Shown: positions 8,580 to 63,788 of the stretch, one piece after another
Layout of the letters: each line of letters starts with the position of its first letter
How positions within the stretch are numbered: the stretch's first letter is position 1
Source: a bacterium SCSIO 12827
GTDB taxonomy: Bacteria > Pseudomonadota > Alphaproteobacteria > Rhodospirillales > Casp-alpha2
DNA length: 64,000 bases
Reading direction: 5' to 3'
NCBI GenBank assembly: GCA_024397995.1
Contig: CP073746.1
Coordinates: forward strand, 1,984,001 to 2,048,000
The notes under the pieces: model-generated
The model's input: the letters and a program-made list of their open reading frames with translations, nothing else
The model's database searches: none
Told to the model about the DNA's origin: nothing
Program-made: the position numbers and the translations under genes

Positions 8580-8702
8580 CGGATTGCTATTCCTCGCAAG
8601 GCTATAGCAGATTGATTTCAAACACAGAGGAGGCCTTAGTCCGCATCGGACAATCTGAGAAAGGTTCCCCTGCCCACATCCCACAATTCCCTCTTTTCGA
8701 GC

Positions 8703-10364: not shown

Positions 10365-10386
10365 GGCATTATCTCCCGCTTCAGAG

Positions 10387-14968: not shown

Positions 14969-15124
14969 TGCCAACTCCCTATATGCCAAACCGGATTGGT
15001 GCGGCGCTCTCCACTTCAGACCTCCCACAGCCTAAGTTAGCCTGCGGCGACGCAGGCTCCATCAAGGCAGGGCCAAGGGTAGCGAAAACTTCGGAAGAGT
15101 CAGCAAATAGATAATACGTAGTTA

Positions 15125-43450: not shown

Positions 43451-43466
43451 TTACTTTGACTTCTGA
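43430..43466 (-). terminator. Rho-independent terminator overlapping the giant gene's stop codon
   Basis: On the minus strand CAGAAGTC and GACTCTG pair with one bulge, followed by GG and a run of eight T. The TAA stop at 43451-43453 lies in the loop, so the terminator stem is partly coding. It ends the secretin-giant operon. Confidence 0.75.
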
Positions 43467-46400
43467 GCGTTCTCGCCTCCGAACCGCCAATTTTGCGCCA
43501 GGGTGCCCGTAGTTTTGGCGCAAGTGCTCAAGGTCACTCGTGTTCCGTCCTGCCAATTGCCGCCACGGGCGCCCAGGCACAATTTGCTGTCCTGATGACG
43601 CAGACGGAATGCCCGATCAGTGGCAGGCCCCTTCGGGGTCTTGCCCGGCCCATTCCATAGAATCTCGAACTTCTGCGACGGACTATTCACCAGGCACGGC
43701 GCAAGAACCGCCGGCTTGCCGCCGCCGGCCACGGGCAAGGTCAGGCAGGCACCCGTTTCCTCGGCGCGCAGGGTGCCGTCGTCATAGCGGGCAAAGAGCG
43801 TCTGCCGCCGCCCGCTCCCGTAAGCCCTCAGCGTCACCCGACCATCCCGCTTGGCAACCGGACCGCTGATGCACATGTCGTTGCCGCCATTCAAGGTCAG
43901 ACCACGCCACCCTGCCATCGCTTTGGCCCGGGGCAGTTCGGCCATGGGCCGCCAATCCTGATCCGGCTGGCTGGACTTGTCCGCGCAGGCCGCCAGGGTC
44001 AGGCCGTTGCCTGCCGTCGCCTGACCTTGTTGCAGGGCGATGCAGCGTTTTTCCGCCACATGCTCCAATCGCAGGGCCCGCCCGCCGTCGGCGGCCTTGG
44101 GCGCCGCCTTGCCCTTACCAGTCCAATGCAGGCGCAGGCGTTGACGCGGATCGCGGTAGGAACAGGTTTCCCAAACCGCCGGCATGCGGTCGTTCTCGAA
44201 CGCGAGACACAGGCCGCTGGCATCGTCGCGGAAACTGTCGTCATCGAAATAGGTGAACCGGTCGGCACCGTCCAGCGCACAGGGCTGGATCGTCGCCGGG
44301 CCGCCGGCCTTGTTCGTCGGTCCGGCTAGGCAATGCCAAGCCTGCGCGACGGCGACAATCCCGGATAGCGGTCCGACCGGGGCCGCGCGGTAAGGCGCGA
44401 CCCAACCCTGCAGGCCCATGAAGGTATAGCCGCCCCGGCCCTTGTCGCCGCCGTATTCCCGGTCATCCACGGTCAGAAGATCGTCGCCGGTCTGATTGTG
44501 CCGGTAACGGCGCAGGGCCACGGCCCCCTTGGTTTCGTCCGCCAGCACGTATCCAAGGACACCGTCGAAGGCATAGCCGTCCTTGGCGAACCGGTAATCC
44601 AGGAAATCCGTAACATAAAGGTGCTGATCGCGGCCGGCATGACGATAGCGGTACAGAGGTCGCGTCTTCGCCGCCCGCTTGGGCAGGATCGTGCCCTGGG
44701 GAATCTCGATCTTGTAGCCTTGTTTGCCCGTTTCCCAATCCGCGGGGCCCAGCTTGAATACATGCGCCGCGCGGTTGCCCGTGCGCGCATAGCGCACCAG
44801 GGGCACCGGATCCGACGCGGCGACGGAACCCTCCATCCCCGGCGGCGTGAATTCGGGTCGTTTCGTGGTCAGGGTGAAGGCCTGCAGGTCGGGATCGCTG
44901 GTGGCGCAGGCATAGGCCCGGGTTTCAACCCCGTCCTGGCCCGAAGCATCGGCGATGCCCAGGCATTTTCCGGAGTCCGCATGGCTGATCCTGTGGGTCT
45001 TATCCCGCGCCGGTTTACCCAGGGTCCATTGTTGCGACCGCGTGTAGTCGCAGCGGTCGACGGTCACCGCCGCCCCCTTGGCCCCGCCCTTGCCCGGCGC
45101 CCGCAAGCTGAGGCACAGGCCGCTCGCGTCCTGGCGCAGGGTGCCGTCCTGCCACAAGGTCAGCGCATGCTTGCCGTCCTCCTTGCCGCAATAGCTGGAC
45201 AACAGCGGCCCGCCGTCCGTCCCGTCCGCATCCAGACAAGTCAGATTGCGATGGGTCGCGGCGAACAGAGCCTGATGGCCCTTGTCCGGCGTTTCGTCAT
45301 AAGGCGGCACCCAGGCGACGACGCCGTCATAGGCATATCCGTCCTTGCCCGCCTTGCCGCCGAGTTCGTCGGCATCGGCTGTCAGAAGATGATCGCCCCT
45401 CGCCTTATTGACGTAACGATGCAGGGCCACCGCGTCCTTGCGCTCGGCGCCATAGGCGAAGCCGACCCAGCCGTCATAGGAGACAGTGCCCTTGGCGAAG
45501 CGGAACTCGTGGAAGTCGCCCGTATAGATGGTGTCGCCGGTCTTCGTATCCTTGTAGCGGTAAAGCGGCCGTGTGCCCGGCGCACGGGTGGTGAAGATGA
45601 AGCCCTGGGCGGCCTGCATCTCATACCCGTTCTTGCCCAATCCAAAAAGTTCCGGCCCCGCCTGCATCAGGTGATCGCCCTTCCCGGCCTTGGCCGCATA
45701 GCGAATGAACGGCACCGGATCCGACGCGGCGACGGAACCCTCCATCCCCGGCGGCGTGAATTCGGGTCGTTTCGTGGTCAGGGTGAAGGCCTGCAGGTCG
45801 GGATCGCTGGTGGCGCAGGCATAGGCCCGGGTTTCAACCCCGTCCTGGCCCGAAGCATCGGCAATGCCCAGGCATTTTCCGGAGTCCGCATGGCTGATCC
45901 TGCGGGTCTTATCTCGCCCTGGTTTACCCAGGGTCCATTGTTGCGACCGCGTATAGTCGCAGCGGTCGACGGTCACCGCCGCCCCCTTGGCCCCGCCCTT
46001 GCCCGGCGCCCGCAGGCTGAGGCACAGGCCGCTGGCGTCCTGGCGCAGGGTGCCGTCCTGCCACAAGGTCAGCGCATGCTTGCCGTCCTCCTTGCCGCAA
46101 TAGCTGGACAACAGCGGCCCGCCGTCCGTCCCGTCCGCATCCAGACAAGTCAGATTGCCATGGGTCGCGGCGAACAGAGCCTGATGGCCCTTGTCCGGCG
46201 TTTCGTCATAAGGCGGCACCCAGGCGACGACGCCGTCATAGGCATATCCGTCCTTGCCCGCCTTGCCGCCGAGTTCGTCGGCATCGGCTGTCAGAAGATG
46301 ATCGCCCCTCGCCTTATTGACGTAACGATGCAGGGCCACCGCGTCCTTGCGCTCGGCGCCATAGGCGAAGCCGACCCAGCCGTCATAGGAGACAGTGCCC

Positions 46401-49400
46401 TTGGCGAAGCGGAACTCGTGGAAGTCGCCCGTATAGATGGTGTCGCCGGTCTTCGTATCCTTGTAGCGGTAAAGCGGCCGTGTGCCCGGCGCACGGGTGG
46501 TGAAGATGAAGCCCTGGGCGGCCTGCATCTCATACCCGTTCTTGCCCAATCCAAAAAGTTCCGGCCCCGCCTGCATCAGGTGATCGCCCTTCCCGGCCTT
46601 GGCCGCATAGCGAATGAACGGCACCGGATCCGACGCCGCCTCGGCGACCTCCATCCCCGGCGGCGTAAAGCGGGGCTGATTGGTACCGGCCGACCAGGTC
46701 TGGACATTGTCGCCGGGCGCCTTGCAAGATGTCAGAACGGCGGCGACGCCGTCCTGACCCGAGGCGTCGGCCAGGCCCAGGCATTTTCCGGAATCGACAT
46801 GAACGATCTGCATGGACCGGGTCGGGTCGGCGGCCTTGGGCGCTGTGCCCTGCCAAGCCGCCTTGAACTGCTGCGCCCGCGTATAGGCACAGCGCGCCAA
46901 CGTCACGCCGGCCTTGTCCGCATTCAGGCAGAGCTTGGTGCCGTCCTTGGTCCCGCCGTCGAAACGCAGGGTGCCGTCCCGCCAGAACGAGAACTTGGGC
47001 CTGTCATGATCGTGGCAGAAGGACGCGCGCACCGCCGCGCCCACTTTGGCCGCGCCGTCCAGGCAGCTCAAATTCTTGGCCGTCGCCAGGTAAAGGCCCG
47101 TGTAGCCGTCCGTCGGAGCTTCCGGATAAGCCGGGGCCCAGGCAGCGATACCTTCATACGCATATCCGGCGCGCCCGACCTTGCCGCCGAATTCATCGAA
47201 ATCGGACGTCAGCAGATGATCGCCCCGAACCTTGTTGACGTAGCGGTGGAGCGCCACCGTTCCCGGCTGCTTGTCCGCGTGCAGATACCCGGCGATCCCC
47301 TGGTAGGCGTAACCCGATGCGCCGTATCCCAGTTCGCGGAAGTCAGGTGTCCAGAAATGATCGCCCGTGGCCTTGTGGTGATACTGGTAGAGGGGCGCCG
47401 TACCCGCCGCCCGTCCGGCCCAGACATAGCCCTGCGCCGTTTCCATGACATAGCCGTCCCGTCCCAGACCCAGGGCATCCGGTCCCACGGTCAAGCGATG
47501 GTCGCCGCTTTTCGATTTGGCGCTGACATATCGGATCAGCGGCTGGGAATCAGCGTTGACCATCGGCGCGTCCGCCCCCGGCGCGGTAAACGTGGGCACG
47601 CCGCCATGGGCCCACCAAGTGCCCCGGCGGTCGTCCTTGGCGAACTTGCCGCAGGGCGCCATCACGGCGGGCACGCCGTCGCGGCCCGATCCGTCGGCCA
47701 AGGTCAGGCACGCCCCGGACAGCCAATGGGACAGCTGCATGGCCGTACGCCCACTGGGCTGTCCCGGCGCCTTACCGCCCTGCCACACAGGCGTCCAGCG
47801 CTGGGCCAGACTGTTGTCGCAGGCCGCAATTTCCGGCGGTGCGGTGCCCGCCCGATCGGTCGTCATGCACTTGCCGCCGCTCAGGTCACGCAGCGTGCCA
47901 TCGGTCCAGAACGCCAGGGGCTGATCCCCCTCGTCCTCGCAGCGGCGGGACGACAGACTGCCGCCTCCGTCCCGGGTCAGGCACACCATGCCGTCCCGGT
48001 TGGCCAAGTGAACTTTGGCCCAACCTTTGCGAACTTCCGCGCCAGTGCCCGGGGTATAGGCGGCAACGCCTTCGTAACGATACCCGTTCTTGCCATTGGC
48101 GCCGTCCAGTTCGTCCCCATCCGTCGTCACCAGGTGATCGTGGCGGGATTTGTTGAAGTAGCGGTGCAAGGGCAGCAATCCCGGTCCCTTGGCAGCCTGG
48201 ACATAACCCAGCACCCCGTCAAACCGATAGCCGTCCGAGGCGAACCGCAATTCGTGGAAATCGGCGGTGTACATATGATCGCCGTCCTTGGCCGCGACAT
48301 AGCGGTAGAGCGGCACCAGGTCCGCCGCCGCGCGGGTCGCAAACACCCGGCCCATGACGACGTCGGGCAGGAAACCGTCCTTGCCCCGGCCCAATTCGTC
48401 CAGCCCCAGCACCAAGCGATGATCTCCCCCCTTGGCCTTGGGATTGACGTAGCGCACCAGCAGTTCCGGGTCCGACGGCCGCACCGGCACGTCCGTGCCC
48501 GGCAGGTCATAGGCGGGAACCTCTTGACCTGCGCTCCAGAACTGAACCCCGGCCTTGCCCTCTGCCGCGCATTTCACGAGAACGGTCTCGACCTCGTCGC
48601 GGGCGCTGTCGTCGGCCAACCCTAGGCATTTGCCGCTCTGCCGATGAACGAGTTGGAAGCGGGCCGCCGGGTCCGGACGCGACGGTTTCTTGCCGCTCCA
48701 GCGGACATCCCATTGCTGGCCCGGCGAGTAATCGCAGGTATAAATCCCAACGTTGGCCGCATTGCCGCTTTGGCTGTTTGTGCCCAGGCACAAATCCTTG
48801 GGATCATGGCGCAGGGTGCCGTCGGACCAGAAGGTGAACCGCATGTTGCCGTCGTCGGCGCATAGGCGCGAGTCGAGTTCGCCGCCGTCCTGAGCCTGCG
48901 CGTAGAGGCAGCTGAAGTTCCGGTTGGTCGCGACATAAAGGTTGCGGAAGGCCGGCGACGGCGTCTCGTCATAGGCCGGAACATGGGCGATTATCCCGCC
49001 GCCCGCATAGCCGCTCTTGCCCGCGAACGCTCCCTTGTCGACGGTCAAGACATGACCGCCGTTGTCGCGGGTGTCGAACCGATGCAGCGGCACCGTCCCG
49101 GACCGCGCGTCGGGATAGACGAAGCCGGCCAGGCCCAGATAATCGAACCCGTCGCGACCGAACAACAGATCGCGAAAATCGGTCGTATAGCGGCGCACGT
49201 GGCTTTTGCCCCGGCCGTACTCGTAGAGCGGCACCGTACCGGGTGCGCGGGTCTTGAAGATGCGGCCCTGGGCCTGCTCGATCACCAAGTCACCCTTGCC
49301 GGTACCATAGGTTTCGGCCCCCGCGACCTGCACGTAGGCGCCGGGTTTCTTGTCGCGGTAGCGCACGAAGGGCACCGGCTTCGATGCTTTTTCCGGCTGC

Positions 49401-52400
49401 TCCAACCCCGGCGGGGTGAACGGTTTCACCCAGCCGATGACCCCCTGATAACGATAGCCGTCGCGACCCCGCTTGCCGTCGAGTTCGGCGAAGTCGGTGG
49501 TGACCCGCGTGTCGCCCGTGGCCTCGTTGACATAGCGATGAAGGGCGACCGTTTCCGGTCCTTCCTTGGCCTGGACGTAGCCAAGGATGCCCTCATAAAC
49601 GTAGCCGTCGGTCCCGTACCAACGTTCCGAAAAATCGGTCGCCACGTAGGTGTCGTTCCTGGATGCGCTGAAATAACGGTAGAGCGGCACCGTGCCCTTG
49701 GCGCGCTTCGGCCAGATGTGTCCCAGATAGCGGTCGGGCACATAGCCGCCCGCCCCCCGGCCGAATTCCTTGTCCCCGGCGGTCAGGCGACTGTCGCGGG
49801 TCTTGGCGTTGACGTAGCGGGCCAGGATCACCGGCGTGGATTGCACCACCGGTGTGTCGGCACCGGGTGCTTGGAATTCCGGCACCCAGCCGACGACGGA
49901 CTGTGCTGTATACCCGGGCTTGGTGTCTCCGTCCCGCGCCAGCATATGTTCGCGATTGGCCGACGAATGATAAAGGCGCAGCGCCACCGTGCCCGGCCGC
50001 TGCTTGTCATAGATCCAGCCGGCGATCCCTTGATAGGTCCATCCGTCCTTGCCCCAGGCCAGACCGTCGAACTTCGTCGTGTAATAGGTGTCGTTATTGG
50101 CCGCGTGGAAATAGCGGTACAGCGGCACCGTATCCTTGGCCTTTTTGCTGAAGATCATGCCCAGGGGTTTGTCCAGGACATAGCCGTCCGCCCCCTCGCC
50201 CATTTCCCCGAACCCAAGGGCGATCACGTGATCGCCGGTGCCCGGATGGTGATAGCGCAACATCATCTCGGGCTCGGACTTGACCGCCCGATCCTTGGCT
50301 CCCGGCGGCGTGACGGCGGGAACCCAGCCCTCGACCTTGACGTAACTGAAGCCCTTGGCGCCCTTCTTTCCACCGAACTCGTCGATGTCCGTGGTCAGCA
50401 GATTGTCGTTGCTCGCACCGTTGCGGTAGCGGTGGAGCGCCCGGCTGCCCTTCTGTTCCTTGGGATAGACATAGCCTTCCACGGCGACGAACTCGTAGCC
50501 GTCCTTGCCGTACCACAATTCCTGGAAATCGGTGGTGAAGATGTGGTCCTGCTTGGCCCCGTTCCAGTAACGGTAAAGCGGCACCGTACCCTGAACCCGC
50601 CCCGGGAAGATGGCGCCGGCGACGCCATCGCGGACGTAGCCGTCACGGCCGTCACCCAGCTGCGCCGGGTCGGCGGTGTACAGATGGTCGTTTGCCTTGG
50701 GATTGAAATAACGCAGCAAGGGCACGGGATCGACGCGCACGAGCTTAGCATCCTTGCCCGGGCCGTAGTCAGGCCCCGGGTAATGGCCCAGCCCGATATT
50801 CTTGCCGTACCGGCGCTGGATGATCGGCAGCGTGCCCGGTCGCTTGTCGGGGAACACATATCCGGCAATGCCCGCAAAATAGATTTCCGGCGAACCATAG
50901 CCATATTCCTTGAAGTCGCCCGACAGGATGTCAGGCGCCTGACGGCGACGATTCTCGATGCGGCCGTACAAGTATAGCGGCATCGTGCCTTCGGCCGGCT
51001 TGGGGAAGACCTGGATGTTCTTGTCGAACGCCAGGGGCACCGGGTTCGACGGTTCCACCGGCGGCGTCAGCGGCGGCTCTTCCTTGGGCAGGTACCCGGC
51101 GGTTCCCTCGAAACGCCAGGGCCCCCTTGGATTGCGCCCCAGCTGGTCGATGTCGCCGGTGTAAAAGTAGTTGGTGTTGTTGCTTTCGTGATAGCGGAAG
51201 AACGGCACCGTGTTGGGGATGTCCCTGTTGTAGACGTATCCCGCCACACCATCGAAGCTGAAGCCGCGCTGACCGCCTCGGAATCCGTTGGGCTCGGTCG
51301 TGTAGACGTGGTTCTGCCCCTTCCGCGCCGTTCGCCAGAAACGGAACAGGGGCACGGTTCCGGGCGCCCGCTTGTTGAAGATCATGCCGACCTTGCCGTC
51401 ATAGGCCCAGCCGTCGCGCCCGTTACCGAACTGTTCCGGATCGGCGGTATGGTAGTATTCGTTGGTGCTGCGCTTCCAATAACGCATGAACGGCACCGGC
51501 GGATCATTGCTGACCGGCGCCTTGTAAGCGGCCTCCAAGGCCTTGGCTTCCCGGTCGAGCGCCGGATTGACCACACGTCCCTTGAACGGGTCGAAGGGAA
51601 GCCAAAGATCCGTATGCTTGTCGCCGACGCGCCCGCATCCCCAAAGGACGATCTTTCCCCGATCGATGGCCAGGCAGGCCCCGCCGCTTCCATCCTTGCG
51701 GTGCGCGATGATCTGCCCCGTTGTCAGAAACTCCATCTTCAACACCGACGACGAACTGCAAGATTCCAGCGATACCACGCCGCCTTCATGGTACCTGCGG
51801 GCGCCCATGCAGCCGCCTTTCACGTTTCGCAGGTATCCATCGCCGTAGAACCGCCAGCTTTGATTCCATTTGCCGTGGCAGCCCCACGGAATCAGATCCA
51901 CGCCTGCCTGGTCTTTTGCACCTCGGATGTCGGCGCACCAGCCTTTATCGCGGTTCGCAATGGAATAATGACGCAGCAGGAAATTATCAGGAATCCAGCA
52001 GCGCTTGAGGCTGTCGCTCCAGCGCTCGCTGCCCCGGCAGTCAGACGGCCGCGGGCAATCGCCCAGGCGCAGCAACTTGCAGTCCAACGACTTCAGCCCC
52101 TTGATGATTTCTCCCGCCAAGTTTCCGACGGCGCCGACCACCACATTGGCCGCGTTCGCCACGTCGCGCAGGCCCTGGGCCGCCACATCGACCGCCGCCG
52201 CCGCCATACCGGCAACACGGCTACCGCACTGCAAAGCGTCCTTGGGCGACGGTAGGGAGATTTTCGGCTGAAACTTGACCGCCTGGATGAAATCGATGGG
52301 CAGGGCCGTTCCCTGATTGACCTTGAGCGCGAGGTTGCGGATGTCCCCTGCCCCCATGGTGGTCTGAGAGGAAAAGCGCGCACAAGGATGGGTCGAGCGG

Positions 52401-55400: not shown

Positions 55401-58400
55401 ACCTCCAGGGTATCTTCCTTGACCCCGACGAAGGCCAGGGCCTTGGCCAGGGGGCTCTCGGCCTTGGGTTCGACAATGAAGCCAGCGCGCAGCCCCTGGG
55501 ACGGCGGCAGCGCGCCGCCGCGCGACACCAGTTTCAGCGCCGCCGTGACACTGTCCGGATAGGCGTCGTTCTCAGGATACGCGTCTTTCTCGCCGGGCAC
55601 GTAGACCAACGCCCCCCGGGTCAGCTTGGCATTGTCTAAAGGCGTGCCACGCACACCCGGAATAAAATCAGCGGCATCCACACTTTCCGGCACCAGGGCG
55701 ACGAAGGGTTTCTTGTCCTTCTTGAAATCGAACACGGCCAGGGTCGTCTGAGAGCCGCGCAACTGGACCGTGCCGGAAATGACTTCCGAGCCGATGCGGG
55801 CGTCGGTCAGGGCCAGATCACCGATCCCGGGCACCGACGTGCCGATCAGGTCCTGCACGGTGATGTCCGACGCCACCGCCAATTGCAGGCGAGGGTCGGC
55901 CTTGTTCAAATTGACACTGCCTGTCAGACGCAAACGGTCGCTGCCGCCCTCCACATCCAGGCCGACACCATCCACCCGTGCCGCAAGCCGCAGGCTGCCC
56001 GCGAGGGCCAGCGGTGACACCCCCGGCAGCGTGACCTGCATGTCGCCGGTGATTCGGGTCACCAGGGCGACCTTTCCATTCTCCGACACCCCCTGAATAC
56101 GCAGAATGGGATCGTCAAAGGCGACCACATCACGGACACCCGGCAGGTTCACAGCCGGCAGCTTGGTTTCCAGGTCAACTTTCTGAACCAGGCCTGCGAC
56201 AGCCTCTTTGGCGCGGGTCTTGATGGCGCTGTTACCGCCACCGCCGCCGCCCGACACCAGGGATTTCAGCGCCTCTACCGGCAACACGCCCGATAGTTTC
56301 AGCGGCTGCCCACCCCCGCTGCCGGTGAAGGCGAACATTTTTTTCAGGGCCGGCAGATCGCTGGGCTTGAGGAAGCTTTTCAGGTTGAGGCCGGGGCGGA
56401 ACGAGGACCCACCGCCGCCGAAGGGATTGAGCAAGGGGCCGACGGCGGTTTTCACCTTGTCCGGTAGGGCCGCCACGTCGAACGGCAATCGCAGGGAGGT
56501 GCCGTCACCTGATCTGCCGGGGATGTAGGTGAACACGGCCTGCGGCAATGTCAGGCCGGCGATGGGCGACGACCCCAGGCCGGGAATGAATTCGGACGGC
56601 TTCAACCCGGCGGCGGATAGCGTCACCGCCCAGCGCCCTTCCGTGCGGAACGCGCCGACCGTGGTCTCGAAGCCCTTCAAGGCGATCTTGGCGACCAGAT
56701 AATCCGTGTCTCGTTCGACCTCTTTCAGGTTGAGATCGCCAATCACCGGAATGTCCACACCGAGCAGACTGGACAGGGTCTGCTCACCCGAGAACTTGAG
56801 CCTGAAATCGCGCGGTGATCCCGGCAAGGGCAGAGAGGCCTCGATAAGAGCCTTTCGTCCGCCCGGGTCGAGGGCTGAGCCCGCGAAGGTCAGCAGCCGC
56901 TTGCCCCCCTCCATCGGCTCGGTCGTGAAGGATCCGTCGCCTTCATAGACGCGCCCCGGTCCCGGCAGGGCAAAGCGGATGGAGGTATCGATGCGCGTAG
57001 TCAATCCCGTGTCGCTTCCCTTCAATGCCAGAACCGGGCGCGACGGGAAATCGATGGCCACGGGGCCGATCTTGTTGAAATTCAGGGTCGGCAGGGTCGC
57101 CGTCAGGTCGATGGCGGCGATCAGGTCCTTCCCCGACGCCGTGAAGGGATTGGCGTTGAACCGGCCTTCGATCTCGAGCGGGTCCGTCAGGCGGATGCCC
57201 AACCCGCCCAGCAGGTCCGCCAACTGGCCGCCTTGCTTCGGCCGCGCCATCAGTTCGGCATTGAAGCCGTCGCCGACCCTGGCCAGGTCGAAACGCCCGA
57301 CGAGTTCCGCCGGGAACCCGGTTTCGGACAAGGTCGCCTTGCGGCCGGGGGGCAGGTACAGGAAGGTCGTGCGTTCAAGCGTCGCCGCGTCCAGGGCCGT
57401 ACCGGCCACGGCGGGCAGGACCTGGGCTATATCCAGGTTCGCCGCGACCACAGCCAGGGCCGGCTTTTTGTCGCGGGCGAAATCAAAGGCCGTAGCCTGG
57501 AACGTCCCGCCCTTGACCATGATCTCACCACTGACCAGCCCAGCGCGAACGGCGGCCTTGGTCAGCGCCACATCCGACAGGCCGGGCACGTTCAGACCCA
57601 TGACATTGGCCAGGGTCAAGCCTTCGCCGTCCAGGGCAAGCGCCAGATCCGCCTTGCGCCCCCCGGCCGTGGCCAGCGATCCGGACAGGGTGAACTGCCC
57701 CGCCACGTTGTTCAGCCGCCCGGTGCCGTTGACCGCCGCTGCCAGATTGCGGCCCGCATCCAGGGTGAGCGTGATTTCATGGTCCAGGCTGCCCGACGTG
57801 GGCGTGCCCGGCAGAACGAAGTCGAAGGCGCCGGTGATTGCCGTGGTAAGGGCCGCGCCGTTCGCACCCTCGCCGCCCGTCAGCTTGATCTGGGCCGCCC
57901 GTGACGACAGATAGTCACCGACCCCCGGCAACTTGATCGCCGGAACCGGAATGGTGAGGTCCGTTTTCTGGATGATCTTGGCGACCACCGTCCCGGCCAG
58001 TTTCTTGGCCTTGGCCGCCGCCCCGCCGGACCCACCACTTTTACCCTTGGGCAATTTGCCGCGGATGAAGGCAAGCGCCTCGCCCGGCATGACCGCCTTC
58101 AGCTTGAACGGTTTGCCGCCACCGCCGGCCCCCAGTTTGGCCAACAAGTCGGACAGCTTGCCCAATTTGGCCGGATCAACGGCCGACACCAGGTTGAGGC
58201 CGGACAGCAGCCTGCCGCCGCCCGACGGTCCGGACAGCTTGCCCGCCAGATGCCTGATCCCCTCCGGCAGTTTGTCCAGGGCCAAGCCGTCCCCACCGCC
58301 GCCGCCGAGTGTCGGCAGATAGGCGAACACGAGATCACCCAAACGAACATCCGCCAGCGGCGTTGCCCCCAGGCCGGGAATCACCGACAGACCGGGCAGG

Positions 58401-61400
58401 TCCGAGACCTCCATCGTCATCAGCCGAGCCAGGGGGTTGCCGCCACCACCACCGCCACCAAGGGCTGCGAGGTTGACCGTGAATTTCGTGTCGCCCAGCG
58501 CCAGGGTCCCCTGGACATGACCGAGGGACAATTTCGCTTCGGCCAAGCGCAGGCTGCCGATGCCGGGGACTTCCGTGCCCAGTAGGTCCGACAGGGTCAG
58601 GCCGTTGTCGATGGAAACCGAGAAATCCTTGGCCTTGGCCAGGTTCTTGAAATTAAGCGGGGCTTCCGCCGTCAGGTGCAGCTTGGAGGCAGCCTCGATA
58701 TCCAGCATGGCCATGCGCTGGGCACCCTGCCCGGTAATGCGCGCGTCGACCTGTACCTGCTCATCACGCCTCACGATGGGAATGGTAAAGGTGCCCCCGG
58801 ATTTCAGGGCCAATTCCATGGCCCCGGCGGCGTCACTGGTCAGCGCCAGTTCCGTCACGTCCGACAGCTTGAACAGGTTTTCCAACCCCGGCAGGGTCAA
58901 TCGCGGCAGTTGCGCCTTCAAGGACAATCCGGCCAGGACCTTGGGCGCCCGCCCCCCGGCGACCGCCTTGACCACGGCGGCGGGGATGTCGCCCGACAGG
59001 AAGGCCGTCTCCGTTTTGGGCACGCCCAGACGCCGGGCCAGTCGCGCCAAGGGATCATCGCCGTCAAACGACAGGCGGCTGAGGAACGAAATCCCCGGCT
59101 TGAGAACAATGCCGCCGCCTTCCAGTGTTTTCTTCAAGGACTGGGCCATGGCGGCCGGCAGGCCATCGATCGCCTCCGCGCCACTGCCGGGCCCGGCAAT
59201 TAGGATCGCCGTTTCCGGTAACTCCAGATCGGCCAGGGGTGTGCGGTTCAACCCCGGCAGATAGGCAGCCGGGCGCACCCCGCGACTGACATCGATCACG
59301 GCCAGGCGCGCATCCGGCTTATCGACGATGGTGATGGTGGACCGGGCATTCCCCCGGCCCAAAGCACCAGAAATGACCTTACGGCTCAGATAGACGTCCT
59401 GAATTTCCAAATCCGCCAGGCCCGACACCTGGATTTGCGACAGATCCCCCAATCGGAATCCGCCGGCCAATGCCAGGCTCAAGTCAACCGGACGCTTATT
59501 GCGGATGCTCCCCGTCAGGGTGACCCGCTGGCCGCCCCGGATATCCTCGCCTTGGGCGTCGACTTCGTCGCCCTGCCAGCGGAATGCGCCGTCGGAACGG
59601 GCCGCGGCGGCGAATTCGAAGTAGCGCGGTACCTTGGCCCCCGGCAGCATCAACGTACCGCCGAAATCCAAGCCCGCCGACACCCTGCCTGACGAGCCGC
59701 CCTCGAAGACGAATTCCGCCCGGTCGGCGAGACGGAACAGGTTACTCAACCCAACACCTTCCAACCCCGTCACCTCACCCCGTAGGCGCAGGGTCGCCAG
59801 GACGCGCTTCAACCGCCCGCGCGCATCACCACTGCGCCAGGCCTCGGCTGCGGACTCATCCGGCTCGTCGAACACCAGGGGATCGATCTGGCCGACAATC
59901 TTGATCCCGCCTTCGTTGGTCCGCCCTTGGCGGAACAGCGACAGCAAGGTGGAAAACGGATGCTTTTCGTCAAAGCCGGAGGCCTGAAACAGGTTCATCC
60001 CCGGTTTGGCGCTGCTCAGATCCTTGTCCGTGAAGAATTCCTGGAACAAGGTTTGGAATGGCTTCGGCAGGTCCGACAGTTTGGGCGGACCCCGCCCCTT
60101 GGGCACGTAAAGGTAAACGGCGCGTCCCGTCTCGACCTTGCCCAGATCACCCAGGACATTTTTGGGCACCAGCATTTCGATGCCGCCGCCATCGACGGAC
60201 AAGGCCACATAGGCCGCGTCATTGTTGGTGACGGGCCCGATCACCAGCTTCGCCGGCTGGCCGCGGATGATCGTATCGACCGACACGGCGCGGCCCGTTG
60301 TCAGCTTCGGCACGGTGCCAAGTTTGATCTCATCGAACCCGGGAATGTCCAGGCCGGCGACGGCTTCCAGGGTGTTGCCGTCCAGCTTGAATAGATCTTT
60401 GCCGTCTTCCTCGTCCAATTCACCGGCAATGGGAATACGCTCGCCCGAGCGCTCGCCATAACCTTCGGCCCGCAGCTTGGGCACATAGGCATCATCCAGC
60501 GAGAACAGGAAGTCGATTTCCTTGGCCTGGGCGCCATCGACCTTGATATTGCGCAGGTCGCGCAGGCCCGCCTTGGCGGTCATGCGGAATACGGGCTCGC
60601 CATCGCCGGACACGGCATCGAAATCAAGCGTCCCGGCAGCCTTGACCTTGCGCGCGCCGAACCCGAACCGGGCCGCCGCCGTTCCCGTCATGTCCAGCCG
60701 TCCGTTGCTGTCCGGTGCGATCGTCAACGCCAGGTCTGCAGCATCGACGTAACGTCCGATCTTCGGCGGCCGGAATCCTTCCAGGTTGAACGTCAGCTTG
60801 ATGTCGTCATCCGTGACGTCCGGCTTTGCCGGCTTCACGCTAAGCCCGACAAGGCGGCGGAACATGCGATAGCTTACGTGCCCCTGCACCAGGACTTCCT
60901 TCTCCTTGAAATCCAGGGCCTTATCCAAATTGTCCAGGAACGAATTTTCACGGATGACCAGCCGGGCAAAGATCACGCCGCCCGCGGGCAGATCCATGGC
61001 GCGGCGTTTGGCGGTGACGAACTTCTTCAGATAGCGCGTTGTCGCGGGGGGTATACTCAGCTTGGACAAGCGGGTCTCGCGGGCTTCCGAACTGTAGATC
61101 AGCACGGCGTCCTTGAGCACCAGATCGATGGCGCCGGTCCGTCCTGCCGCGTCGGCGAACAGCCGGAGCGGCAGGCTCTCGCGCTTGTGCAGAAAATGAT
61201 AACTCCCCTTGACCGTGTCATCGTCCTGCCTCGACGCGGATGTGGCCGAAGCGGTGGGCGACGGCGGTGCGGGGGCATCCAAGGGGCGGCTTTCCACCTT
61301 GTCCACGGGCGCCGGGGTCGGGGCGCCGGGGACGAGGGGCTGGGTTTGTGGGGTCGTCTGCTGATCCGATGCGGCCGGAGACGGCACGGTGTTGTCGTCT

Positions 61401-61792
61401 TGCGCCCCATCGGGCAAATGGAAAAATTCGAGCTCGCCCTTGTTGCCGGATAATATCAGGGTCCGCGCCTTGCCGTCCTGACCCAGGCGGTCCAGATCCA
61501 GTCCCTTGAACAGGCCGGATTTCTTGAACGCCTTGGTGATCTCCTGTTGAAGTTCGGATTCAACCGACGACGGTGCCCCGGCATCCGGCGCCGCAACCTT
61601 GGGTGCCTCGACCGTGGGCGCCGTGACGCTGGGTGCGGCAAGGGCCGGCGCGCCGGATCCCTGGGTTTGCGCCTGGGACAGATCGGTCGGAAAAACCGCC
61701 AGGAGCCCAGCCACCACCAATGCCGTCACGGTGGTCAAAGCGCGTGTTCGAGGCCGGACCTGTCCGTCCCTGCGCGCGGCGTTATTACGCAT
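43451..61792 (-). CDS. Giant secreted repeat protein (6113 aa) with DUF5648-like repeats and ricin-type lectin domains
   Basis: One uninterrupted frame. Signal peptide ~19-41 (ALTTVTALVVAGLLAVFPTD), then Ala/Pro-rich linkers to ~185. Residues ~460-2370 repeat a beta-rich module with cores such as VPGIGDLAL and IPGLGATPLADVRLGDLVFAY; I know no family for it. Residues ~2370-3200 are also beta-rich. A ricin-type domain at ~3270-3408 opens the C-terminal part. It has ten triads of DUF5648-like repeats (LYRYxNxxxxDHxYTTDxxELG, then GYxYxGVxGYV), with seven more ricin-type domains after triads 5-10 and at the C-terminus (~4281, 4591, 4895, 5205, 5508, 5808, 5961), holding QxW and paired Cys. Lectin domains suggest binding to a polysaccharide. 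It follows a secretin gene by 23 bases. Function unknown; surface or extracellular location is inferred. Confidence 0.9.
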   Translation of the reverse strand: MRNNAARRDGQVRPRTRALTTVTALVVAGLLAVFPTDLSQAQTQGSGAPALAAPSVTAPTVEAPKVAAPDAGAPSSVESELQQEITKAFKKSGLFKGLDLDRLGQDGKARTLILSGNKGELEFFHLPDGAQDDNTVPSPAASDQQTTPQTQPLVPGAPTPAPVDKVESRPLDAPAPPSPTASATSASRQDDDTVKGSYHFLHKRESLPLRLFADAAGRTGAIDLVLKDAVLIYSSEARETRLSKLSIPPATTRYLKKFVTAKRRAMDLPAGGVIFARLVIRENSFLDNLDKALDFKEKEVLVQGHVSYRMFRRLVGLSVKPAKPDVTDDDIKLTFNLEGFRPPKIGRYVDAADLALTIAPDSNGRLDMTGTAAARFGFGARKVKAAGTLDFDAVSGDGEPVFRMTAKAGLRDLRNIKVDGAQAKEIDFLFSLDDAYVPKLRAEGYGERSGERIPIAGELDEEDGKDLFKLDGNTLEAVAGLDIPGFDEIKLGTVPKLTTGRAVSVDTIIRGQPAKLVIGPVTNNDAAYVALSVDGGGIEMLVPKNVLGDLGKVETGRAVYLYVPKGRGPPKLSDLPKPFQTLFQEFFTDKDLSSAKPGMNLFQASGFDEKHPFSTLLSLFRQGRTNEGGIKIVGQIDPLVFDEPDESAAEAWRSGDARGRLKRVLATLRLRGEVTGLEGVGLSNLFRLADRAEFVFEGGSSGRVSAGLDFGGTLMLPGAKVPRYFEFAAAARSDGAFRWQGDEVDAQGEDIRGGQRVTLTGSIRNKRPVDLSLALAGGFRLGDLSQIQVSGLADLEIQDVYLSRKVISGALGRGNARSTITIVDKPDARLAVIDVSRGVRPAAYLPGLNRTPLADLELPETAILIAGPGSGAEAIDGLPAAMAQSLKKTLEGGGIVLKPGISFLSRLSFDGDDPLARLARRLGVPKTETAFLSGDIPAAVVKAVAGGRAPKVLAGLSLKAQLPRLTLPGLENLFKLSDVTELALTSDAAGAMELALKSGGTFTIPIVRRDEQVQVDARITGQGAQRMAMLDIEAASKLHLTAEAPLNFKNLAKAKDFSVSIDNGLTLSDLLGTEVPGIGSLRLAEAKLSLGHVQGTLALGDTKFTVNLAALGGGGGGGNPLARLMTMEVSDLPGLSVIPGLGATPLADVRLGDLVFAYLPTLGGGGGDGLALDKLPEGIRHLAGKLSGPSGGGRLLSGLNLVSAVDPAKLGKLSDLLAKLGAGGGGKPFKLKAVMPGEALAFIRGKLPKGKSGGSGGAAAKAKKLAGTVVAKIIQKTDLTIPVPAIKLPGVGDYLSSRAAQIKLTGGEGANGAALTTAITGAFDFVLPGTPTSGSLDHEITLTLDAGRNLAAAVNGTGRLNNVAGQFTLSGSLATAGGRKADLALALDGEGLTLANVMGLNVPGLSDVALTKAAVRAGLVSGEIMVKGGTFQATAFDFARDKKPALAVVAANLDIAQVLPAVAGTALDAATLERTTFLYLPPGRKATLSETGFPAELVGRFDLARVGDGFNAELMARPKQGGQLADLLGGLGIRLTDPLEIEGRFNANPFTASGKDLIAAIDLTATLPTLNFNKIGPVAIDFPSRPVLALKGSDTGLTTRIDTSIRFALPGPGRVYEGDGSFTTEPMEGGKRLLTFAGSALDPGGRKALIEASLPLPGSPRDFRLKFSGEQTLSSLLGVDIPVIGDLNLKEVERDTDYLVAKIALKGFETTVGAFRTEGRWAVTLSAAGLKPSEFIPGLGSSPIAGLTLPQAVFTYIPGRSGDGTSLRLPFDVAALPDKVKTAVGPLLNPFGGGGSSFRPGLNLKSFLKPSDLPALKKMFAFTGSGGGQPLKLSGVLPVEALKSLVSGGGGGGNSAIKTRAKEAVAGLVQKVDLETKLPAVNLPGVRDVVAFDDPILRIQGVSENGKVALVTRITGDMQVTLPGVSPLALAGSLRLAARVDGVGLDVEGGSDRLRLTGSVNLNKADPRLQLAVASDITVQDLIGTSVPGIGDLALTDARIGSEVISGTVQLRGSQTTLAVFDFKKDKKPFVALVPESVDAADFIPGVRGTPLDNAKLTRGALVYVPGEKDAYPENDAYPDSVTAALKLVSRGGALPPSQGLRAGFIVEPKAESPLAKALAFVGVKEDTLEVAGVLPSIALASRPGGAGRGLSGDALKQAVAAVDLEARLPAINLPGIDKVLTLGAPTFLIKGTPVTDIKGQSTGEVRLRVGMAGDLILNLPGHALAFDGGIDIEKTTGGKAFRLAVRSTSTVNWDKAFGLPFLGLNNLALSGAIERTAEGRALLDASLSTMARLDKQEFEAVSSLTLKSNAAPELRFTIPGKIDVAKLPLVGGLKGINELSFANLWIGTGGLGGKVRIDKLGIGGEGAIFLHGGKPIALVKADPFKITDLVGNSGPASKFKQVLEGAAQISLPESVFAISTADLSNVPVGDLPSGLLSMVEGLMPKSGGDKRTLPFGAGVSLIAALSEENLPSAIRQVATRDVNIFKAVDGPLLLAGSLKGVFDGNLEARLDARLPNFKLPEGQPWRQLVSIDNVGAEGFLFVDVPKLQMGLGVNGNITLDVPRLSTPTKSDKLKFGGDLYTSFDAVSWAGSFKLAANMRGDWHQPFGISKNHTFRNPAILIGFDSEGSVEFGVGASAIVTGLGRKQDRTVTADADFLVNINFSTSIPLPKKLAVAYKVKGELSQWTSLEMMEANFKGVLGGPMANEVLKVLPDKKSRDAAKYLQTEILKRSIFDIIRVDELPLPTLSVVDPVIFFATPGAKIPGRDDTLDTMGMRVGGGAYMSLFGNKKRLGGADLRLTLSDGLILKGDLADITLPPILKVQNAKVDIVANIKQLPHFKVSGNTNFLGAKENIDIEFSKDRIHFELERDLGRLIKTRFLAQTDSGDVLGAREFLVEADTKTEIDKLISDEVFPRMGIPKVVFDAIKSSTPIFIHGAKFRGKLVDFLKGGEVTLEIDHSFFGTRMKEPAVAKVKPAWASSNPVEVLPAAAIGDAMGKSFFAYLIDHPFALGKINLGLVSLESASLSAERDTSSRFKITGKLNALGLPFSQTTAYLDNKSGLTLDSKTEINVGLPLGVLGNLARSETTLHYELNPAGVSHKIKLDMSTAALGFKDSIHFNLDGDLTETNVSFRSTHPCARFSSQTTMGAGDIRNLALKVNQGTALPIDFIQAVKFQPKISLPSPKDALQCGSRVAGMAAAAVDVAAQGLRDVANAANVVVGAVGNLAGEIIKGLKSLDCKLLRLGDCPRPSDCRGSERWSDSLKRCWIPDNFLLRHYSIANRDKGWCADIRGAKDQAGVDLIPWGCHGKWNQSWRFYGDGYLRNVKGGCMGARRYHEGGVVSLESCSSSSVLKMEFLTTGQIIAHRKDGSGGACLAIDRGKIVLWGCGRVGDKHTDLWLPFDPFKGRVVNPALDREAKALEAAYKAPVSNDPPVPFMRYWKRSTNEYYHTADPEQFGNGRDGWAYDGKVGMIFNKRAPGTVPLFRFWRTARKGQNHVYTTEPNGFRGGQRGFSFDGVAGYVYNRDIPNTVPFFRYHESNNTNYFYTGDIDQLGRNPRGPWRFEGTAGYLPKEEPPLTPPVEPSNPVPLAFDKNIQVFPKPAEGTMPLYLYGRIENRRRQAPDILSGDFKEYGYGSPEIYFAGIAGYVFPDKRPGTLPIIQRRYGKNIGLGHYPGPDYGPGKDAKLVRVDPVPLLRYFNPKANDHLYTADPAQLGDGRDGYVRDGVAGAIFPGRVQGTVPLYRYWNGAKQDHIFTTDFQELWYGKDGYEFVAVEGYVYPKEQKGSRALHRYRNGASNDNLLTTDIDEFGGKKGAKGFSYVKVEGWVPAVTPPGAKDRAVKSEPEMMLRYHHPGTGDHVIALGFGEMGEGADGYVLDKPLGMIFSKKAKDTVPLYRYFHAANNDTYYTTKFDGLAWGKDGWTYQGIAGWIYDKQRPGTVALRLYHSSANREHMLARDGDTKPGYTAQSVVGWVPEFQAPGADTPVVQSTPVILARYVNAKTRDSRLTAGDKEFGRGAGGYVPDRYLGHIWPKRAKGTVPLYRYFSASRNDTYVATDFSERWYGTDGYVYEGILGYVQAKEGPETVALHRYVNEATGDTRVTTDFAELDGKRGRDGYRYQGVIGWVKPFTPPGLEQPEKASKPVPFVRYRDKKPGAYVQVAGAETYGTGKGDLVIEQAQGRIFKTRAPGTVPLYEYGRGKSHVRRYTTDFRDLLFGRDGFDYLGLAGFVYPDARSGTVPLHRFDTRDNGGHVLTVDKGAFAGKSGYAGGGIIAHVPAYDETPSPAFRNLYVATNRNFSCLYAQAQDGGELDSRLCADDGNMRFTFWSDGTLRHDPKDLCLGTNSQSGNAANVGIYTCDYSPGQQWDVRWSGKKPSRPDPAARFQLVHRQSGKCLGLADDSARDEVETVLVKCAAEGKAGVQFWSAGQEVPAYDLPGTDVPVRPSDPELLVRYVNPKAKGGDHRLVLGLDELGRGKDGFLPDVVMGRVFATRAAADLVPLYRYVAAKDGDHMYTADFHELRFASDGYRFDGVLGYVQAAKGPGLLPLHRYFNKSRHDHLVTTDGDELDGANGKNGYRYEGVAAYTPGTGAEVRKGWAKVHLANRDGMVCLTRDGGGSLSSRRCEDEGDQPLAFWTDGTLRDLSGGKCMTTDRAGTAPPEIAACDNSLAQRWTPVWQGGKAPGQPSGRTAMQLSHWLSGACLTLADGSGRDGVPAVMAPCGKFAKDDRRGTWWAHGGVPTFTAPGADAPMVNADSQPLIRYVSAKSKSGDHRLTVGPDALGLGRDGYVMETAQGYVWAGRAAGTAPLYQYHHKATGDHFWTPDFRELGYGASGYAYQGIAGYLHADKQPGTVALHRYVNKVRGDHLLTSDFDEFGGKVGRAGYAYEGIAAWAPAYPEAPTDGYTGLYLATAKNLSCLDGAAKVGAAVRASFCHDHDRPKFSFWRDGTLRFDGGTKDGTKLCLNADKAGVTLARCAYTRAQQFKAAWQGTAPKAADPTRSMQIVHVDSGKCLGLADASGQDGVAAVLTSCKAPGDNVQTWSAGTNQPRFTPPGMEVAEAASDPVPFIRYAAKAGKGDHLMQAGPELFGLGKNGYEMQAAQGFIFTTRAPGTRPLYRYKDTKTGDTIYTGDFHEFRFAKGTVSYDGWVGFAYGAERKDAVALHRYVNKARGDHLLTADADELGGKAGKDGYAYDGVVAWVPPYDETPDKGHQALFAATHGNLTCLDADGTDGGPLLSSYCGKEDGKHALTLWQDGTLRQDASGLCLSLRAPGKGGAKGAAVTVDRCDYTRSQQWTLGKPGRDKTRRISHADSGKCLGIADASGQDGVETRAYACATSDPDLQAFTLTTKRPEFTPPGMEGSVAASDPVPFIRYAAKAGKGDHLMQAGPELFGLGKNGYEMQAAQGFIFTTRAPGTRPLYRYKDTKTGDTIYTGDFHEFRFAKGTVSYDGWVGFAYGAERKDAVALHRYVNKARGDHLLTADADELGGKAGKDGYAYDGVVAWVPPYDETPDKGHQALFAATHRNLTCLDADGTDGGPLLSSYCGKEDGKHALTLWQDGTLRQDASGLCLSLRAPGKGGAKGAAVTVDRCDYTRSQQWTLGKPARDKTHRISHADSGKCLGIADASGQDGVETRAYACATSDPDLQAFTLTTKRPEFTPPGMEGSVAASDPVPLVRYARTGNRAAHVFKLGPADWETGKQGYKIEIPQGTILPKRAAKTRPLYRYRHAGRDQHLYVTDFLDYRFAKDGYAFDGVLGYVLADETKGAVALRRYRHNQTGDDLLTVDDREYGGDKGRGGYTFMGLQGWVAPYRAAPVGPLSGIVAVAQAWHCLAGPTNKAGGPATIQPCALDGADRFTYFDDDSFRDDASGLCLAFENDRMPAVWETCSYRDPRQRLRLHWTGKGKAAPKAADGGRALRLEHVAEKRCIALQQGQATAGNGLTLAACADKSSQPDQDWRPMAELPRAKAMAGWRGLTLNGGNDMCISGPVAKRDGRVTLRAYGSGRRQTLFARYDDGTLRAEETGACLTLPVAGGGKPAVLAPCLVNSPSQKFEILWNGPGKTPKGPATDRAFRLRHQDSKLCLGARGGNWQDGTRVTLSTCAKTTGTLAQNWRFGGENAQKSK
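44811..45719 (-). repeat. 909-bp tandem repeat inside the giant gene, C-terminal copy
   Basis: This unit encodes one DUF5648-like triad plus one ricin-type domain (303 residues). It is almost identical to 45720-46628 at a 909-base offset; I count only a handful of base differences, for example GKPARDKTHRIS here against GKPGRDKTRRIS in the other copy. The length keeps the frame. The near-identity shows recent duplication or ongoing homogenisation. Confidence 0.9.
45720..46628 (-). repeat. 909-bp tandem repeat inside the giant gene, N-terminal copy
   Basis: Adjacent copy of the unit at 44811-45719. It carries FAATHGNLTCLDAD where the other has FAATHRNLTCLDAD. The flanking triads on either side are clearly related but much more diverged, so only this unit was recently copied. 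Confidence 0.9.
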
Positions 61793-61815
61793 GCCGCAAT
61801 CCTTACACCGACCAC

Positions 61816-63759
61816 TCAGTTGAAATAGAAGTACCGCAACAGTTCCGGGAAAAATCCGTCCTCATAGGTGTTGAGGAACCCGTTTCCGTCGTTGGCCAAC
61901 AGGCGGTCGAAATCACCGTCCTTGTCGTCATCTGAGAACTTGAGATCGCCCGTGCGAAACTCGCGGTAAAGGTCGGAATATGAAAGGCCGACCAACGCCT
62001 TGGTCAGATTGCTGGTCGGGTCGAACCAATTGCGGAACCTCTGACGTAACTGGCGCATAATATTACCGTCCGTCTTCACCCCTTGTTCCCCGGCGGCGGC
62101 ATCCACGGTTTCCCGGTCGTCCAGGCTTTCGGCCAGACGCGGCGTGACCAGGAAAATCAGCGAGGTGTCCTCTGTCGTCGACGTCTTCGAGCTGAAGAAA
62201 TACTGCAACAGCGGCACGCGGCCCAAAACCGGCACGTCATCCGACGACTTTGATTTTTCCTCTTCCGTGCCGCCCCCCAAAACCAGGGTCTGACCGATGG
62301 ACAGGATGGCCGTGCTGCTCAGGCGGTTCTTCAGGGTCGGGATGACGCGGTTGAAGGTGACGCTGGATGTCGATGTGGTGAAGGTATCGAACTCGGCCTT
62401 GGTTTCCAGACGCACCCTGCCGCCGTCGAGAATTTCCGGTGTCACCTCGAAGGAAATTCCGACTTCCTTGTCGAAGGAATCCGCACCGTCACCGTCCACG
62501 GAATAGGTGACTTCCTGCCCCAGGAAAAAGCTGCCTGTCTCACCTTCCAACACGGTGATCGATGGCCGGGCCAGAACCTCCGTGCGGTTGTCCGTGTTGT
62601 TGGCAATGTTCAGACTGTAATCAATTGAGCTTTGGGAATTGGTGCCCAACGCGATCTTGAACGCCTTTTGGATTCGCTTGGTCGCGGTGCTGCCCGACGT
62701 GCCGCTGTCCTGGGCGAACTGGAAAACGTCGCCGCTGAAACTCGCCTGAAGCTGGGAGATCAGATTGACGCCCCGCCGTTCGGACAGGGACGAGGCCTGA
62801 CGGATGATGATCGCGTCGACGACCAGCATGCCCGGCAGTTTCTTCAATTCTTCGGGCTTTTCCTCAGCTTCGGCCGCACCCTGTTGCCCTGTGGCCGGGC
62901 TCGTGCCCGAAGCAGTCCCCGGGGACTTGCTGGACGGCACCCCGGCAGGCGTCTTTCCGCCGAAGAATTGGGCCTGCTGGATGTGGCCCCCGCCGCGAAT
63001 GGCGGCGTTCTTCAGGGCGTTGTCGTGGAACCCCTGCCACTGCTGCACCCGCATGTTCAGGCGCCGGGCCTCCTGTTCGGAGACAAGGTCTCTATATTTT
63101 TCGACGAACTTGTCGGCATCTTCGCGGTCATTCAGGGCCGCATTGACCACGGCGCGGGCGCGCACGTTTTCAACCGTCTCGCCGGTCAGTTCGGCCGCTC
63201 GGTTCAGGAATGCCTCGGCAGCGGCGGCATCGAAATCCAGATAACTGGCTTCGGCCAGGGCCTCGAAGATTTCAGGGGAATCATCCTTGATCAACGCCGC
63301 TTCACCCAGCCACCGCAGGGCCTCCCCGTGCTCGCCGCGACGCATGTGCCACAGGCCTAGCCGATAGGCTGACGGCCAATGGCGCAGGTCGTTGTTCAAT
63401 GCGGCGATATAACCGGACTGGGCCAATTCGCTCACCCTTGCCCCTTCACTGCGGCTGCGCAGTTCGTAGACATAGGCGTTGAGGAAATGCAGGTCCGGGT
63501 CGGTCGGCGCCAGGTTGAGCGCCTGATTAAGAATGAAATTGGCTTCCGGAAGCGCCCCCCGACGGATGGCGTCCAGCGCTTTCCACAAGGGTTTTTCGTA
63601 ATCGTTCTCGGTCAGTTTCAGATGCGTTTTCGGCTTGGCCTCTGCCGATTCCGCGCCACCAAACCCCGTGGTAAGCCGCGGTTCATCCCCGGACATCTGC
63701 ATGCAGCCACCAAGCATGGACACGCCAACCATGGCCGCAGCCAATGTGTTCTTATTCAT
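61816..63759 (-). CDS. TPR-containing secretin lipoprotein
   Basis: 647 residues from ATG 63759 (MNKNTLAAAMVGVSMLGGCM); six extra upstream codons lack support. A lipobox LGGC predicts a lipoprotein. Residues ~45-240 are TPR-like helical repeats (ALDAIRRGALPEANFILNQALNLAP). A Pro/Gly/Ser linker leads to a secretin core (~310-560): RQASSLSERRGVNLISQLQ, VLARPSITVLEGETGSFFLGQEVTYSV, GISFEVTPEILDGGRVRLE, STAILSIGQTLVLGG, VPVLGRVPLLQYFF and SLIFLVTPRL. The C-terminal tail has DDDKDGDFDRLL and NDGNG, Ca-binding-like acidic loops. No N0/N1-type domains are obvious; TPRs replace them. It should form an outer-membrane pore. Its gene is 23 bases before the giant gene, so it is the likely export channel or anchor for that protein. 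Confidence 0.9.
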   Translation of the reverse strand: MNKNTLAAAMVGVSMLGGCMQMSGDEPRLTTGFGGAESAEAKPKTHLKLTENDYEKPLWKALDAIRRGALPEANFILNQALNLAPTDPDLHFLNAYVYELRSRSEGARVSELAQSGYIAALNNDLRHWPSAYRLGLWHMRRGEHGEALRWLGEAALIKDDSPEIFEALAEASYLDFDAAAAEAFLNRAAELTGETVENVRARAVVNAALNDREDADKFVEKYRDLVSEQEARRLNMRVQQWQGFHDNALKNAAIRGGGHIQQAQFFGGKTPAGVPSSKSPGTASGTSPATGQQGAAEAEEKPEELKKLPGMLVVDAIIIRQASSLSERRGVNLISQLQASFSGDVFQFAQDSGTSGSTATKRIQKAFKIALGTNSQSSIDYSLNIANNTDNRTEVLARPSITVLEGETGSFFLGQEVTYSVDGDGADSFDKEVGISFEVTPEILDGGRVRLETKAEFDTFTTSTSSVTFNRVIPTLKNRLSSTAILSIGQTLVLGGGTEEEKSKSSDDVPVLGRVPLLQYFFSSKTSTTEDTSLIFLVTPRLAESLDDRETVDAAAGEQGVKTDGNIMRQLRQRFRNWFDPTSNLTKALVGLSYSDLYREFRTGDLKFSDDDKDGDFDRLLANDGNGFLNTYEDGFFPELLRYFYFN

Positions 63760-63788
63760 TTTGGATACGCTCCACACTGGATGCCGAC

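Follow-up and report, generated by a model that had tools for sequence, protein, structure and literature searches.

Two-partner secretion (TpsA/TpsB) is encoded by a two-gene unit comprising an outer-membrane protein and a very large exported, beta-rich repeat protein. Tetratricopeptide repeat (TPR) lipoproteins act as pilotins of the secretins PilQ and RcpA, and assembly of RcpA requires the pilotin TadD, which binds the last four residues of that secretin (PMC10499894). TPR domains together with an outer-membrane pore also occur in exopolysaccharide export (PMC9384988, PMC8406197), and in Slam/type 11 secretion (DUF560) both reside in one protein whose cargo gene is close (PMC8406197, PMC5449769). 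A secretin-like complex without an inner-membrane energy source has been reported for the outer-membrane tubes of Flavobacterium johnsoniae (PMC8455137). Here we describe two adjacent genes, encoding a TPR-containing secretin (hereafter TPR-secretin) and a giant repeat protein, in a 64,000-nucleotide stretch (the window; bases 1984001-2048000) of the 3.93 Mb single-contig genome of the marine-type bacterium SCSIO 12827. The chances appear evenly balanced that these genes form one export or display unit, with the TPR-secretin acting without a motor to translocate or display the Sec-exported binding protein of the neighbouring gene; such a function is favoured by the pilotin-like fusion and by the Slam-like outline of TPR plus pore with a nearby cargo gene.

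Both frames are unbroken on the minus strand according to open reading frame calls and translation, spanning 43451-61792 for the giant and 61816-63777 for the secretin, whose gene lies upstream of that of the giant. The likely start of the secretin is the ATG at 63759, giving 647 residues; an in-frame upstream GTG at 63777 would give 653. The two-gene unit is composed of the following features.

61816..63759, minus strand: gene for the TPR-secretin, a predicted lipoprotein (open reading frame, translation, PF00263 E 5.5e-34)
61793..61815, strand not applicable: intergenic gap, 23 bases
43451..61792, minus strand: giant exported beta-repeat and lectin protein, 6113 residues (open reading frame, translation)

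The adjacency, the 23-base gap and the intact frames agree with the initial annotation, which was made from the sequence of the window. The gap is identical (23 bases) at the related locus L075 and is replaced by a 4-base overlap at L039. A search for promoters and terminators in the region preceding the secretin gene found none. As the initial annotation also noted, no secretion ATPase or pilin genes occur near the pair; the other secretin machinery of the genome is a Tad (tight adherence) locus about 320 kb away.

The Pfam family Secretin (PF00263) matches residues 393-548 of the TPR-secretin with 117.6 bits against a cut-off of 27.5, accompanied by weak TPR matches, and neither Secretin_N nor any other N-domain is matched even at E 1. 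All 72 scanned family members match PF00263 and most also match TPR; of the 29 families that these members match, the 25 most frequent include no N-domain family. AlphaFold2 predicts TPR helices at residues 61-260 (predicted local distance difference test, pLDDT, mostly >90), followed by a disordered linker and the secretin core. Pfam, the family scan and AlphaFold2 thus bear out the earlier description of a secretin in which TPRs replace the N0 and N1 domains. Its parts are listed below.

63703..63705, minus strand: putative lipobox cysteine codon, C25 in the 653-residue numbering, invariant in 25 aligned members and nearly so in 72
62998..63597, minus strand: TPR domain, residues 61-260, 11 helices, PilF-like fold (AlphaFold2, Foldseek)
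62134..62829, minus strand: secretin core strands, residues 317-548, without N0, N1 or N3 before them (AlphaFold2, PF00263; matches GspD, PilQ, InvG and RcpA)
61819..62133, minus strand: C-terminal extension with a conserved FR.GD motif, ending RYFYFN here

The predicted fold of the N-terminal part resembles those of the TPR lipoprotein pilotins PilF/PilW and TadD; these pilotins are separate proteins, whereas in the TPR-secretin the TPR domain belongs to the same polypeptide as the secretin core. Foldseek aligned it with PilF (2ho1/2fi7) at a template modelling score, TM(target), of 0.67-0.71, and PilF and PilW were among its better natural structural matches, although generic TPRs score equally high. 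The C-terminus is aromatic in 48 of 74 family members, typically FLYY, and this tail is mostly missing in members adjoining pairs of tectonin and Cys-rich proteins. The fusion of TPR and core might constitute a self-piloting secretin, the conserved aromatic tail being a candidate ligand of the TPR groove.

With the secretins of the type II secretion system (T2SS; GspD), type IV pili (T4P; PilQ, MshL), the type III secretion system (SctC) and the Tad system (RcpA/CpaC), the TPR-secretin shares the PF00263 core and the predicted core strands. It differs from them in its TPR lipoprotein domain, the lack of N0, N1 and N3, its position in a separate long-stem clade and its location outside their loci. 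Its scores fall below the NCBI cut-offs for GspD (84.5 bits against 351.35), PilQ (82.6 against 284.35), MshL (66.6 against 250.2) and SctC (57.0 against 238.45), as well as for the pilotin PilW (30.8 against 154); judged by these curated sequence models, it is not GspD, PilQ, MshL or SctC. In a tree including 26 Tad, T2SS/T4P-type and other secretins, the TPR-secretins fell on one side of a branch (SH-aLRT, the approximate likelihood-ratio branch support, 100; stem length 2.89) and thus form one deeply branching clade, from which Tad CpaC/RcpA are separate (support 100). A dedicated model for the family is absent from the libraries searched (Pfam, NCBI models), and the open-access literature searched yielded no description of it, though one elsewhere is possible.

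The likeness to other outer-membrane systems is one of outline. Compared with Slam, the pore is a secretin and not a DUF560 barrel, nor do the partner proteins belong to the TbpB-like surface lipoproteins; PF04575 (the DUF560/SlipAM barrel) is not among the Pfam matches of the secretin up to E 1, and the only PF04575 match in the genome lies at 30 kb, far from the pair. The two-gene make-up is similar to that of two-partner secretion, but neither protein has a Pfam match to an FhaC-type transporter or a TPS domain. The F. johnsoniae particles have been attributed to a GspD-like protein in a different phylum.

Full-length or near full-length relatives were identified in about 24 of 100 related genomes by single-protein search, and a scan of 84,980 species genomes returned 250. 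The best 80 of these 250 belong to alpha-, beta-, gamma- and delta-type Proteobacteria, one Sulfurospirillum (Campylobacterota) and one Nitrospinaceae bin (Nitrospinota), although the taxon names of metagenome bins may be unreliable. Class-wide sampling detected a member at E 1e-30 in 21 of 385 genomes. TPR-secretins lie outside T2SS, T4P and Tad loci, and homologues are thus not consistently found in complete loci of known type.

Clustering of the neighbours of 109 loci revealed tectonin propellers, pentapeptide-repeat proteins, Cys-rich proteins with a ricin domain, AraC regulators, NMT1-like binding proteins, FG-GAP proteins and giant-like beta-repeat proteins, some with ricin domains. After removal of near-identical secretins, 71 of the 93 distinct TPR-secretins have a partner gene of any of four families within 3.5 kb (tectonin 37, pentapeptide 24, Cys-rich 20, giant module 15); such genes often share the strand of the secretin and are separated from it by <50 bases. 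The beta unit of the giant accordingly recurs beside TPR-secretins in other genera (15 of 93 neighbourhoods). A hydrophobic N-terminus was called in 47 of 51 partners checked by simple heuristics. Single proteins at L162:6360-10985 and L137:14189-21704 match both the giant beta module and the tectonin model, and by these profile matches they link two partner classes. The same four partner models gave no match near 25 other secretin loci, most of which hold only 2-5 kb.

Genes for AraC-type regulators repeatedly adjoin TPR-secretins (two neighbour clusters, 26 proteins; e.g., L041:18105-19112 and L077:11752-12858), which suggests shared regulation. Genes for NMT1/TAXI-like (L086:8919-9887 and similar) and SBP_bac_3-like binding proteins (L099:2948-3757 and similar) likewise recur at TPR-secretin loci of the pentapeptide type. 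Just past the window lie ABC transporter genes and a divergent gene that clusters with the AraC-type neighbours of other loci. The SCSIO 12827 genome also encodes a second TPR-secretin, beside an 886-residue tectonin-type exported protein (G000:C1:3097239-3101920; L007:6239-10920); further tectonin genes are located at about 2.47 and 2.57 Mb. The initial interpretation needs correcting in that the system is not tied to a giant DUF5648 protein: exported binding proteins of several classes partner with the secretin family, and this second copy adjoins a tectonin protein.

The pair of secretin and giant is kept in three genomes of the genus and extends beyond it, so that it is not peculiar to a single strain. 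In Thalassospira, secretin orthologues share about 41-44% identity, the giant (at least 2135-2140 residues, with ricin and F5/8C domains) lies 3.4 kb from the secretin with ABC-transporter-type genes between them, and a related AraC gene adjoins the secretin. Across the related genomes, 13 carry both a giant and a TPR-secretin, 5 a giant only, 11 a secretin only and about 71 neither (Fisher p 1.6e-6, uncorrected for phylogeny). The partnership initially proposed from gene order therefore stands insofar as it is conserved, lies outside T2SS, T4P and Tad loci and belongs to a family linked to exported repeat and lectin proteins, but it is not specific to the giant. The two genes could also be neighbouring and co-regulated yet functionally uncoupled, with a periplasmic or cell-surface giant exported independently. 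We regard this as unlikely: a giant or a TPR-secretin is indeed often found without the other, but the family adjoins exported repeat proteins in more than three-quarters of the 93 cases, the giant and AraC neighbours are retained across genera, and the partners are absent at the control secretin loci.

The first approximately 2900 residues of the giant comprise divergent beta-unit repeats and a conserved terminal module, and the C-terminal half contains Pfam matches to DUF5648 in 10 stretches and to Ricin_B_lectin in 9.

61667..61792, minus strand: probable Sec signal peptide at about residues 1-42, called by simple heuristics (hydrophobicity, AxA)
55193..61207, minus strand: divergent beta-repeat array with units of about 230 residues or more, without Pfam match (iterative hidden Markov model, hhalign)
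53051..55150, minus strand: conserved terminal beta module, residues 2215-2914 (model pLDDT 74), also present in neighbours of TPR-secretins from other genera
51665..51928, minus strand: first ricin-type domain, residues 3289-3376
44399..51460, minus strand: residues 3445-5798, array in which ricin-type domains are scattered among about 11 DUF5648-like domains (PF18885 E 3.6e-130)
44779..46596, minus strand: two 909-base tandem copies of 98.1% identity, a recent duplication that accounts for two of the domain blocks
43475..43855, minus strand: last ricin-type domain, residues 5980-6106

Even with the threshold relaxed to E 10, Pfam has no match in residues 1-3000. The AlphaFold2 model of the terminal module shows long antiparallel strands, and no confident fold match for the N-terminal half was found in the PDB or among viral models with Foldseek and VIA, which could miss a fold. 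Homology of this half to TamB/AsmA was considered but gained no support, as hhalign against three TamB sequences revealed no profile similarity (probability 0.2%). TamB (PF04357) was unmatched in seven of ten genomes tested, namely that of SCSIO 12827 and six of nine others. Iterative domain counting identified 8 ricin-type and about 11 DUF5648-like domains, in line with the eight ricin-type domains given originally. DUF5648 has been described as a three-bladed propeller, and O-antigen is among the glycans that it has been proposed to recognise (PMC12853789). About 11 domains of three blades each amount to about 30 blades, which fits the earlier count of about 30 DUF5648-like repeats if these are taken as blades; whole domains number only about 11. 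Given the proposed glycan recognition by DUF5648, a role of the giant as an adhesin or glycan binder is plausible.

T2SSE, T2SSF and Secretin were searched over the genomes carrying TPR-secretins. Seven of these genomes (G027, G052, G092, G099, G202, G203 and G232; 96-100% complete) have the TPR type as their sole secretin, and they contain neither T2SSF nor a full-length match to GspE, PilB or CpaF. ATPase matches in G092, G099, G203 and G232 were restricted to frames of 330-356 residues, a size that would fit VirB11-type ATPases. In G052 and G099, giants are located beside or near the TPR-secretin. In SCSIO 12827, GspE and GspF genes do not accompany the TPR-secretin, and the Tad locus, near 1.72 Mb, is the sole site of strong T2SSE and T2SSF matches. 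This locus could in principle lend its motor, because it encodes a CpaF-like ATPase and two T2SSF proteins. Full-length GspE/PilB-type matches occur in 13 of the 44 genomes with TPR-secretins. That the TPR-secretin borrows an inner-membrane motor from Tad, T4P or T2SS elsewhere in the genome nevertheless seems quite unlikely, considering the seven near-complete genomes above, the secretin that the Tad locus carries for itself, and the absence of platform-docking N-domains from the TPR-secretin. We also considered whether T4P/T2SS-like machines of small genomes use the TPR-secretin as their secretin; this was rejected because the genomes examined (G104, G230, G239, G380, G413, G417 and G426) each encode another, non-TPR secretin. 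The reduced genomes of 0.8-1.9 Mb represented by loci L166-L170 and L172 encode one or two TPR-secretins that lack a recognised neighbouring partner, besides a separate lipoprotein secretin and a PilB-type ATPase.

Based on these features, we propose the following mechanism. The secretin would be made as a lipoprotein, its fused TPR domain replacing both the periplasmic N-domains and a separate TPR pilotin (PilF, TadD). Lipid and TPR domain together might target it to the outer membrane, and there it would assemble into a multimeric channel. After crossing the inner membrane via Sec, the giant would be recognised by the TPR ring on the periplasmic side, pass through the channel and fold outside, where its ricin and DUF5648 domains may bind sugars. 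No dedicated inner-membrane ATPase or platform would be needed, and folding outside the cell could provide the drive, as has been proposed for two-partner secretion. Extended to the family, the TPR-secretin would represent an unrecognised, widespread outer-membrane pathway, a stand-alone translocon without inner-membrane platform or ATPase for the Sec-exported lectin, propeller, pentapeptide or giant beta-repeat protein encoded next to it; for this generalisation the balance tips slightly towards the negative.

Several observations weigh against a motorless translocon or display unit. Recognised partners are absent near 22 of the 93 TPR-secretins, several small genomes included, and no export signal common to all partner classes was found. 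The partner classes were derived from the very neighbourhoods in which they were counted, the control loci mostly comprise only 2-5 kb of sequence, lipoboxes and signal peptides were called by simple heuristics, and many of the genomes analysed are drafts. Giants occur without a full-length TPR-secretin in 5 of 18 giant-bearing relative genomes (G011, G029, G031, G051 and G073) and without any TPR-secretin in the class members G383 and G191, indicating that giants can exist without it or exit by another path. Among these, G051 (99% complete) has no secretin of any kind and encodes a 2675-residue giant with a ricin-type domain (L155:5162-13189); if giants are surface proteins, another export route must exist there. 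This genome would suit a TPR-secretin that is an outer-membrane anchor or display scaffold, the giant reaching the surface by another route and being held by the outer face or pore, and docking could also allow the wide differences in fold among partner classes. We consider such an anchor improbable, as the conserved secretin core suggests a pore and giant-bearing genomes with only the TPR-secretin lack other secretin machines.

Export of a polysaccharide, with the lectin, propeller and pentapeptide proteins as binding or processing factors, would parallel the TPR-porins of synthase-dependent exopolysaccharide export (PMC9384988, PMC8406197) and match the sugar-binding types of partner domains. 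Glycosyltransferase or synthase families are absent from the recurrent neighbour clusters examined, however, and the core has the fold of protein- or filament-type secretins, which makes this explanation very unlikely.

Elsewhere in the window, a chemotaxis-type signalling operon occupies 971-15028 on the minus strand and encodes CheB, an Hpt/histidine kinase, a methyl-accepting chemotaxis protein, CheR with TPR, response regulators, an EAL protein and a large PAS/GAF hybrid kinase. On the plus strand, an open frame of 1375 codons (44498-48625) runs antisense to the giant gene and is probably a by-product of G+C-rich repeats. Plasmid carriage and phage origin of the pair were considered and rejected: tblastn gave no plasmid match, and the sole PHROG match was that of the secretin core to filamentous phage pIV, with none for the giant.

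Well-studied secretins need an inner-membrane machine. If the clade described here, with its own pilotin-like domain and its recurrent place next to exported binding proteins, does persist in genomes lacking every such machine, a secretin could work as a simple translocon, and the pair would provide a surface route for very large lectin-like proteins, which may be a simpler way to place large proteins outside the cell.

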